Of a DNA stretch of 64,000 nt, positions 5,438 to 7,080 are shown in pieces; position 1 is the first letter of the stretch; each line of letters starts with the position of its first letter. The notes below the pieces were generated by a model. That model saw nothing but the letters and a program-made list of their open reading frames with translations. It had not been told where the DNA came from and searched no databases. This DNA is from an uncultured Oscillospiraceae bacterium (GTDB lineage Bacteria; Bacillota; Clostridia; Oscillospirales; Oscillospiraceae), in assembly GCA_947169975.1 (NCBI GenBank), contig CAMVRT010000011.1:1-64000 (forward strand), written 5' to 3'. The position numbers and the translations under genes were made by a program.

Positions 5438-5466
5438 ATTTTGGTGGGTTGTGTCGGAGAAAATTA

Positions 5467-5495
5467 TTGCAATTTCCCGGCGCGACTCTTATAAT
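5467..5495 (+). promoter_or_regulatory. Promoter of the uracil permease leader
   Basis: TTGCAA (5467-5472) and TATAAT (5490-5495) are 17 bp apart. The predicted start near 5502 gives a leader of about 180 nucleotides before the permease ATG. Confidence 0.8.
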
Positions 5496-5524
5496 AATCA
5501 AGAAAATTCCAGGAGGTGAGAGTC

Positions 5525-5599
5525 ATGACGCTGCGGAATACCCCTCAGTACGGCGCCGCTCTCTTTTTCTCCTCTTTTATCTGTGCTTTTTCTCTGTAA
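5525..5599 (+). CDS. Leader peptide for pyrimidine attenuation
   Basis: A 24-codon open frame (MTLRNTPQ ... FICAFSL, stop at 5597-5599) with a perfect Shine-Dalgarno AGGAGGTGAG at 5511-5520. Its second half is encoded by a tract with 34 pyrimidines in 38 bases (5559-5596). The stop codon overlaps the first two bases of the terminator stem that follows. This is the arrangement of E. coli pyrL before pyrBI. At low UTP, polymerase would pause in the U-rich tract, the trailing ribosome would catch up and mask the terminator stem, and the downstream gene would be read. The peptide itself need have no function. Too short for ordinary gene callers. Confidence 0.7.
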   Translation: MTLRNTPQYGAALFFSSFICAFSL

Positions 5600-5625
5600 C
5601 CGGTATTTTTACCGGTTATTTTTTT
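5598..5625 (+). terminator. Attenuator of the uracil permease gene
   Basis: AACCGGTA (5598-5605), a TTTT loop and TACCGGTT (5610-5617) form a perfect 8-bp stem, followed by A and seven T. It lies between the leader peptide and the permease, 58 bases before its ATG, so it must be bypassed for expression. Confidence 0.85.
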
Positions 5626-5682
5626 GGGTATTGTCAGCAAATAAGCAAACATATAAACAGGAGAAAGAGAGGTCAACCGCAA

Positions 5683-7080
5683 ATGAAGAAAAAGGACAAG
5701 AAAAACAACCTCGGCCAGGAGGCCATCTACGACGCCCGCACCCTGGGTGTGCCCCGGATGCTGGTGCTGGGTCTGCAGCACCTGTTCGCCATGTTCGGCG
5801 CTACCGTACTGGTGCCCATTCTGGTCACCGGCTACGGCCTGCCCCTGTCCATCCAGACCACCCTGCTGATGGCCGGTCTCGGCACGCTGCTGTTCCACAT
5901 CTGCACCAAGCTGAAGGTTCCCGCCTTTCTGGGCTCCTCCTTCGCCTATCTGGGCGGCTTTGAGGCCGTCGCCCAACTGAAGGCCGGCAAGTACGCCGCC
6001 ATGACCGGCGACGAGAAGCTGGCCTATGCCCTGGGCGGCGTGGTGGTCGCCGGCGCGCTGTATCTGGTGCTGGCCCTGCTGTTCAAGGTGGTAGGCGCCA
6101 AGAAGGTCATGCGTTTCTTCCCGCCCATCGTCACCGGCCCCATGATCATCATGATCGGTCTGAACCTGGCTGGCTCCGCCATCGGCAATGCCCAGACCTG
6201 CTGGTGGCTGGCTCTGGTGGCCATCGCCGTCATCATTGTCGCCAACATCTGGGGCAAGGGCATGATCAAGATCATCCCCATCCTGCTGGGCGTGGTAGTC
6301 AGCTACATCGTGGCTCTGATCGCCACCGCCTGCGGCGCACAGCTGCCTGACGCCGACGGCGTGCTGCAGCCGATGGTCAACTTTGCCTCTGTCAACAAGG
6401 CCGCCTTTGTGGGTCTGCAGAAGTTCGTCATCGCCAAGTTCGACCTGACCTCCATTCTGGTCATGGCCCCCATCGCCATCGCCGCCATGATGGAGCACAT
6501 CGGCGACATCTCCGCCATCTCCTCCACCACCGGCCGCAACTTCATCGCCGATCCCGGCCTGCACCGCACCCTGCTGGGTGACGGTCTGGCCACCGCCTTT
6601 GCCGCCCTGTTCGGCGGCCCCGCCAACACCACCTACGGTGAAAACACCGGCGTCCTGGCCCTGAGCCGCGTGTACGATCCCCGGGTCATCCGTCTGGCCG
6701 CTCTGTACGCCATTATCCTCAGCTTCTCCCCCAAGTTTGACGCCCTGGTCAACTCCATTCCCGCGGCCATCGTGGGCGGCGTCAGCTTCATTCTGTACGG
6801 CATGATCTCCGCTGTCGGCGTCCGCAACATCGTGGAAAACAAGGTGGACCTCACCAAGTCCCGCAACCTGATCATCGCAGCCGTCATGTTCGTCAGCGGT
6901 CTGGGCTTCAGCGCCGTGGGCGGCCTGACCTTCATGGTGGGCGACGCCGCCATCACTCTGACCGGTCTGGCCATCGCTGCTCTGGCCGGCGTGATCCTCA
7001 ACGCCATCCTCCCCGGAAACGACTACGAGTTCGGCTCCAACCCCCAGGGCGACAAGTCCGCCGACATGGGTTCCTATTGA
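5683..7080 (+). CDS. uraA: Uracil/xanthine permease (NCS2 family)
   Basis: A 465-residue proton-coupled nucleobase permease, most likely for uracil. It has about 12-14 hydrophobic segments. NCS2 signatures are GLQHLFAMFGATVLVPIL near the N-terminus, EHIGDISAISSTTGR (the conserved Glu of the substrate site) and GGPANTTYGENTGVLALS after it. I start at ATG 5683 behind GAGAAAGAGAGG. The open frame continues upstream to 5449, but that part contains the promoter and attenuator. A leader-peptide attenuator with a U-rich tract supports pyrimidine control and favours uracil over xanthine. Downstream are strong palindromes. Confidence 0.93.
   Translation: MKKKDKKNNLGQEAIYDARTLGVPRMLVLGLQHLFAMFGATVLVPILVTGYGLPLSIQTTLLMAGLGTLLFHICTKLKVPAFLGSSFAYLGGFEAVAQLKAGKYAAMTGDEKLAYALGGVVVAGALYLVLALLFKVVGAKKVMRFFPPIVTGPMIIMIGLNLAGSAIGNAQTCWWLALVAIAVIIVANIWGKGMIKIIPILLGVVVSYIVALIATACGAQLPDADGVLQPMVNFASVNKAAFVGLQKFVIAKFDLTSILVMAPIAIAAMMEHIGDISAISSTTGRNFIADPGLHRTLLGDGLATAFAALFGGPANTTYGENTGVLALSRVYDPRVIRLAALYAIILSFSPKFDALVNSIPAAIVGGVSFILYGMISAVGVRNIVENKVDLTKSRNLIIAAVMFVSGLGFSAVGGLTFMVGDAAITLTGLAIAALAGVILNAILPGNDYEFGSNPQGDKSADMGSY

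Follow-up and report, generated by a model that had tools for sequence, protein, structure and literature searches.

Upstream of a uracil permease gene in an uncultured Oscillospiraceae bacterium lies a short reading frame that passes through pyrimidine-rich DNA and ends at an intrinsic terminator. It raises the question of whether a translating ribosome adjusts uracil import to the UTP supply in this member of the Firmicutes. According to the cited part of a 2026 review, the pyrimidine genes of Gram-positive bacteria are controlled by PyrR, and those of Gram-negative bacteria by premature termination or changes of the start site (PMC13328217). We analysed a window of 64,000 nucleotides (positions 1 to 64,000 of contig CAMVRT010000011.1, forward strand) together with the matching loci of related genomes.

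Architecture of the leader and its gene

The preliminary description had listed, in order, a promoter, a Shine-Dalgarno sequence, a leader of 24 codons, a tract with 34 pyrimidines among 38 nucleotides, a terminator with the stop codon in its stem and then the permease, and all of these were read directly from the DNA. The sigma-70-type promoter TTGCAA-17-TATAAT (5467..5495, plus strand) has its -35 element at 5467-5472, a spacer of 17 bp and its -10 element at 5490-5495, and matches the consensus at 10 of 12 bases. The Shine-Dalgarno AGGAGGTGA (5511..5519, plus strand) precedes the leader frame MTLRNTPQYGAALFFSSFICAFSL (5525..5599, plus strand), which runs from an ATG at 5525 to a TAA stop at 5597-5599. 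The second half of the frame is the U-rich tract CTCTC...TCTCTG (5559..5596, plus strand), in which T is enriched at the third codon position.

The first three stem bases of the intrinsic terminator (5597..5625, plus strand) are the leader stop codon. Sequence reading, covariation and folding point to a 9-bp hairpin, TAACCGGTA-TTTT-TACCGGTTA (5597-5618; arms 5597-5605 and 5610-5618, loop 5606-5609), which is followed by a T run at 5619-5625. A purine-rich stretch, GAAAGAGAGG (5663..5672, plus strand), is the putative ribosome-binding site of the permease and was found by eye to be exact in 23 of the 28 leaders of the genus. The label low-GC, used in the preliminary description, is a poor fit to the window, which has a GC content of 62%.

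The gene behind the leader (5683..7080, plus strand) encodes an NCS2 uracil permease of 465 aa. In profile searches it matched PF00860 with 286 bits and TIGR00801 above the cut-off, and it reached 290 bits against the uracil permease model PRK10720, which is under the cut-off of 477. The open reading frame 5449-7080 was rejected as a separate gene, being merely an upstream extension of the permease frame. A BioY-type gene lies upstream of the leader and so, at a distance of about 3.6 kb, does a gene of the uridine kinase family (1179-1844), a second possible pyrimidine-salvage gene near the permease. The minus-strand gene at 68-1024 encodes a Big_2 (bacterial Ig-like) domain, and the repeat DPVDPGT occurs in it about seven times. 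The Rfam scan of the window found one tRNA and no cis-regulatory family, and the leader gave chance-level matches only.

Conservation within the genus

A permease match was present in 29 of the 32 genus genomes, and reading upstream of it on the correct strand revealed the full leader layout in 28 of these 29, one of them (L020) assigned by eye because of an interrupted T run. The exception, G008, is 79% complete and has a distant paralogue alone, which lacks the leader. G014, G017 and G018 had neither a permease match nor a strong leader match in a covariance-model search. The peptides are 19-28 codons long and very different in sequence, and in all 28 leaders the short frame led by a Shine-Dalgarno is open and a TGA or TAA stop opens the stem. 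Lack of conservation of the short frame or of its stop/stem overlap in relatives had been named beforehand as evidence against the attenuator, and both were found to be conserved. The comparison of relatives that had been proposed for uraA and pyr genes bore out the frame, the U-tract and the stop-in-stem geometry; the peptide sequence varied, and leaders at pyrB were generally absent.

The alignments (A1 and A2) comprised 27 of the 28 leaders, with L008 omitted as a near copy of L007. In A1, TATAAT and the TTG of the -35 element were invariant. The stem was paired in 94% of its cells, and 17 cells and four of the nine pairs had changed on both sides. The covariation score was reached by none of 500 shuffles, and two of five measures were reached by 22 and 37 of the 500. 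The outermost pair was broken in 10 of the 27 leaders. Covariation also links the second stop-codon base to its stem partner, the pair being G-C in 17 leaders, A-U in seven and G-U in three.

A covariance model of the leader, which was trained on these same loci and scored at most 103 candidates per genome, found a single strong place in each of 28 genomes of the 32, always at the permease (E ≤ 2.4e-17). Among the matches listed, all others had E ≥ 0.0022, and the search informs only that further strong places were not seen.

Leader frames across the family

The frame test covered the stretches upstream of 100 of the best permease matches outside the genus and of the 28 genus loci (128 loci); four places of similar score were omitted (one duplicate, two pieces of one gene and one other). 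It asked for a terminator with a score of at least 20 at most 160 nt from the permease, and for a frame led by a Shine-Dalgarno with its stop in the hairpin or at most 4 nt before it. The terminator was present in 79 of the 128 loci, and 73 of these 79, including the 28 genus loci that were preselected for having the leader, had such a frame. When one or two bases were deleted, the number fell to 14 and 17 of 79, and dinucleotide shuffling gave 9.3%. Outside the genus, 45 of 51 loci had the frame, compared with 8 and 15 after the removal of bases. At the shuffle rate about five of the 51 flags would arise by chance, so that genera represented by a single locus are uncertain. Altogether the flagged leader occurred in 15 genera.

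Outside the genus, 55 of the 100 family loci failed the test, and the leader was commoner at permeases closer to that of the window, being present at 36 of the 53 with the best scores and at 9 of the remaining 47. The stem type varies by genus (CCGGT, GACAATCAC, GCAATTG) and the geometry is retained. Of the 73 leaders, 69 have a stop that overlaps the hairpin or the base at which it begins; in open reading frames of at least 120 aa with a nearby terminator the median distance from the first stop-codon base to the stem was 16 nt, and in none of 29 such ordinary gene ends did the stem start inside the stop codon, a contrast that is partly built in by a leader search which demanded a stop near the hairpin.

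Among named loci, 23 of 80 were flagged, some probably by chance; L228, L230 and L241 look like such cases. By-eye counting found no flag in the 39 loci titled Lachnospiraceae, Lachnospira, Butyrivibrio or Pseudobutyrivibrio.

Leaders before other genes

The same kind of leader was found before different uracil permeases. In G004 and G030 these have 39% and 35-43% (two pieces) identity to the permease of the window, and in G348, G208 and G043 the identity is 30-34%. In G133 the leader precedes pyrB (TIGR00670, 346 bits against a cut-off of 237). As this genome, 68% complete, alone represents its genus in the data set, the pyrB case is a single sighting. Leaders were found at none of 18 pyrB loci of the genus, and no convincing one was found in the 29 family pyrB loci scanned of 30 (the top-scoring 30 among 119 genomes that had a match), where the flagged loci L312 and L322 look like chance. 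With both scans negative, pyrB was rejected as a general site of the leader. At many genus loci a gene that by eye resembles orotate phosphoribosyltransferase runs directly into pyrB.

Twenty stretches with weaker matches to the model were inspected. L331, L340, L342 and L343 precede permeases, and L333 does so too by sequence. The remaining 15 were rejected, since they lie before other genes or no called genes, and several are by eye signal-peptide genes with T-rich codons. At L329 (G161:C4:271209-271316, minus strand) a leader frame, MTLAATKNQANVFFFNCYYFFWFKK, stands before a DAHP synthase gene and resembles a classical attenuator for aromatic amino acids, within this same family. L327 (G185:C14:15639-15809) has a leader-like frame rich in Ala, Val, Ser and Cys with a T-rich end, before a putative XRE-cupin regulator gene. 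At L328 (G373:C235:3527-3567) a LacI-type regulator gene is preceded, at a distance of about 270 nt, by a very similar terminator, TAACCGGT...ACCGGTTA and a T run, with T-rich DNA 5' of it.

Selection on the U-rich tract

Averaged over genera, the T fraction increases over the last 30 nt before the hairpin, from roughly 0.2 to about 0.5. In the last 12 codons of the genus leaders, 125 of the 199 codons of four-fold boxes ended in T, compared with 138 of 1582 in the 12 window open reading frames that were taken as genes. Valine in these tails was written GTT 50 times and never GTG, the commonest Val codon of the window genes. Outside the genus the four-fold count was 122 of 268, with no local gene set to compare. 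The tails hold Ser, Phe, Val and Ile in mixture with T-biased codons and without a run of any single amino acid; Phe occurs in 70 and Ser in 67 of the 73. The bias at third positions points to selection on nucleotides and not on one amino acid.

The Shine-Dalgarno of the leader itself can pair with the tract (region 5511-5596 in the window) in 64 of the 73 leaders. Since shuffled and swapped tracts pair nearly as often (0.75 and 0.82), this pairing is largely a matter of composition. It could limit late ribosome loading.

Proposed mechanism and alternative explanations

From the sequence data, we think it likely that the leader attenuates transcription by way of a coupled ribosome and senses UTP, as in E. 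coli pyrBI, and that it probably arose separately in the Oscillospiraceae. Transcription would start about 7 nt past TATAAT, and a ribosome would load on the leader and trail the RNA polymerase. With plentiful UTP, the polymerase would cross the U-rich tract far ahead of the ribosome, the hairpin would fold and transcription would terminate before the permease. With scarce UTP, the polymerase would dwell in the tract, the ribosome would catch up and, standing at the last codons or the stop, would mask the 5' arm of the hairpin, by which the hairpin would be blocked, the permease transcribed and uracil imported. Both the read-through and its direction are what we infer.

Pairing prediction gave the 5' arm of the hairpin an upstream partner at P > 0.5 in none of the 73 leaders. 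With no predicted antiterminator of the trp type in any of them, the ribosome itself would have to be the antiterminator. Between the hairpin and the gene, one locus had a promoter match with 3 of 12 positions mismatched; the other 72 had at least four mismatches at best, or no match was possible. The 95 nt before the leader frame held a promoter with 1-3 mismatches in 54 of the 73. It suggests that the permease should depend on read-through, as there is no good promoter between the hairpin and the gene. UTP is suggested as the signal by the U-rich codons, the gene and the missing antiterminator, and in a U-rich tract low UTP would be a natural cause of polymerase delay, by analogy with E. coli pyrBI.

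In E. coli pyrBI, tight coupling across the leader is required to prevent the terminator from forming (PMC5021804, cited in part). In B. subtilis the RNA polymerase is reported to outpace the ribosome (PMC9226507, PMC7858274), and a stop codon close to a terminator has served as an indicator of runaway transcription (PMC7858274). If the polymerase outruns the ribosome here as well, the coupling would be weakened. The frame-dependent attenuator of B. subtilis vmlR (PMC9226507) sets a precedent for ribosome-dependent attenuation in Firmicutes. We lean slightly towards a broader reading in which pyrimidine shortage creates transcription-translation coupling on demand at this one transcript. The U-rich tract would hold the polymerase until a ribosome occupies the hairpin, and a protein, an antiterminator or a riboswitch would be unneeded. 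The leader was kept across the exchange of permeases, and unrelated stems show the same geometry; in this respect it behaves as a portable and repeatedly re-made UTP switch, which would be convergent with pyrBI.

The conserved feature is the geometry by which the ribosome would act as antiterminator, and the leader might in principle respond to ribosome availability, growth rate or translation speed, with the U-rich tract serving as a general pause. The pause motif TTNTTT, described for NusG of B. subtilis (PMC9226507), was enriched outside the genus (26 of 45 leaders, shuffled mean 16.0, reached by none of 500 shuffles) whereas no clear enrichment was seen inside it (17 of 28, shuffled mean 14.1, reached by 79 of 500). 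We consider such a general sensor unlikely, because the clear cases lie at uracil permeases and at one pyrB, and T is favoured at third positions throughout the tail, beyond the needs of a short motif. Starvation for Phe, Ser or Val could also stall a ribosome in the leader tail over the hairpin. The composition of the tails alone would suit such an amino-acid signal, and the aromatic leader before DAHP synthase belongs to the same family; the T bias, however, spans Val, Ser, Ile, Ala and Leu besides Phe, which an amino-acid sensor would not need, no antiterminator is predicted, and the downstream gene imports uracil, all of which makes this explanation decidedly improbable. Slightly less probable again is that the frame is a gene for a small protein, which has a terminator of its own and lies upstream of the permease by accident. 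The pooled pN/pS of 0.54 (ten close, non-independent pairs) indicates mild constraint on the peptide, and the terminators of ordinary genes lie at most 12 nt from the stop in 10 of 29 cases. Against this, the peptides are widely divergent, the hairpin starts inside the stop codon in none of the 29 ordinary gene ends, no good promoter lies between hairpin and permease, and the same leader stands before swapped permeases.

The tract might instead control translation of the permease by pairing with its ribosome-binding site, which translation of the leader would release. The minimum-energy fold of the window transcript does form this pairing, and the site is widely exact in the genus. The pairing is striking in the window, yet there is no species-specific match: the duplexes have -15.6 kcal/mol within species and -15.7 kcal/mol between species (the site was mis-cut in L028 and L030), and L012 and L013, which lack the exact site, still have the U-rich tract. 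We give this explanation very little credence. Least credible of all, in our judgement, is that UTP is sensed at the transcription start, whether by reiterative transcription or by a switch of start site; the leader would then be a bystander. The start region is similar across the genus, and in 6 of the 27 aligned leaders (L011-L014, L016 and L023), counted by eye, three or four T stand at the start, as in E. coli pyrBI. In the window, however, AAAATTCC follows at TATAAT+7, and the window and most relatives have at most two T at the presumed start. At the E. coli carAB P1 promoter, breaking the run of three T abolishes this kind of control (PMC6245113, cited in part). Sensing at the start would also leave the frame and the terminator unexplained.

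PyrR and pyrimidine genes of the host

The preliminary description had seen no PyrR anti-antiterminator in the leader and had named a PyrR-binding motif there as a second finding that would speak against the attenuator. The searches gave no such finding: Rfam gave no PyrR element there, a PyrR consensus had no match in the window at one mismatch or fewer, and in the genome of the window (G000, 97% complete) the PyrR protein matches were weak, the best with 36.7 bits against a cut-off of 138. PyrR exceeded the cut-off in 5 of the 32 genus genomes (G010, G022, G024, G025 and G031), all of which also have the leader. At the gathering score, the PyrR element family RF00515 was found in none of the 32. 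Sub-threshold matches in G031 (52.8 bits), G022 (42.6) and G024 (39.0), against a threshold of 54 (L345, L346 and L348), precede dihydroorotase genes, identified as such in G031 and G024 and by similarity in G022; there were no RF00515 matches in G010 and G025. A fourth sub-threshold match, in G026, looks like chance. It appears from these matches that in some species of the genus the de novo operon is under PyrR and the permease under the leader frame. Rfam likewise found no PyrR element in 20 named permease loci, mostly of Lachnospiraceae.

In G000 neither PyrB nor PyrD of the TIGR01037 type, the one PyrD type searched, was over the cut-off. It suggests that this organism is possibly a uracil auxotroph that depends on the permease, and that the leader may control a needed uracil import in a gut bacterium without detectable PyrB, PyrD of this type or PyrR.

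Relation to known attenuators

By analogy, the leader shares with E. coli pyrL-pyrBI a short U-rich frame, an intrinsic terminator before a pyrimidine gene and the ribosome as the likely antiterminator. The earlier statement that this is the pyrL-pyrBI layout holds for the leader, the U-tract and the terminator. It does not hold for the course of the frame: pyrL, of 44 codons, extends past the attenuator and ends 3 nt short of pyrB, whereas the frames found here have 15-45 codons and stop at or inside the hairpin, so the layout is not literally that of pyrL. The phylum also differs, and the gene encodes a transporter.

In the E. coli pyrE (rph/orfE) attenuator, the translated frame stops right before the terminator hairpin, and a ribosome near the stop covers the hairpin. 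Our leader resembles pyrE in that the frame ends at the hairpin, and differs in that it is a dedicated leader and not a full-length upstream gene. With the PyrR attenuation of Bacillus and its relatives (RF00515) it has in common that transcription of Firmicute pyrimidine genes would be attenuated, but no PyrR element was found here. A leader frame with a terminator is known elsewhere from hisS (PMC2965389) and from uORFC-13-1 at aroF of Acholeplasma (PMC8632094). Those leaders are tied to amino acids, whereas ours stand at pyrimidine genes and have no run of a single amino acid.

In the cited part of a survey of 2010, the authors knew of no leader-peptide systems beyond Proteobacteria and Actinobacteria before their own, except ermC (PMC2965389). 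Among the matches listed in our literature search, no title or abstract opening mentioned attenuation by a leader peptide at a Firmicute uracil permease or pyr gene; subscription literature was mostly outside this search. The principle is known from pyrBI but was unexpected in this group, and what is new lies in the lineage and the gene concerned, in the stop-in-hairpin form and in its breadth.

The extent of transcription-translation coupling in Firmicutes is under question, and the polymerase is thought to outrun ribosomes in this phylum. A conserved leader that should work only if the ribosome catches the polymerase would offer a natural and direct test of coupling in Clostridia.

The likeness to the pyrBI leader is one of layout. 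In the peptides, one resemblance was seen by eye: the L025 peptide ...RKDAGLAFSSF... resembles KKDAGLPFFF of E. coli PyrL, which may be due to chance or to shared U-rich coding.
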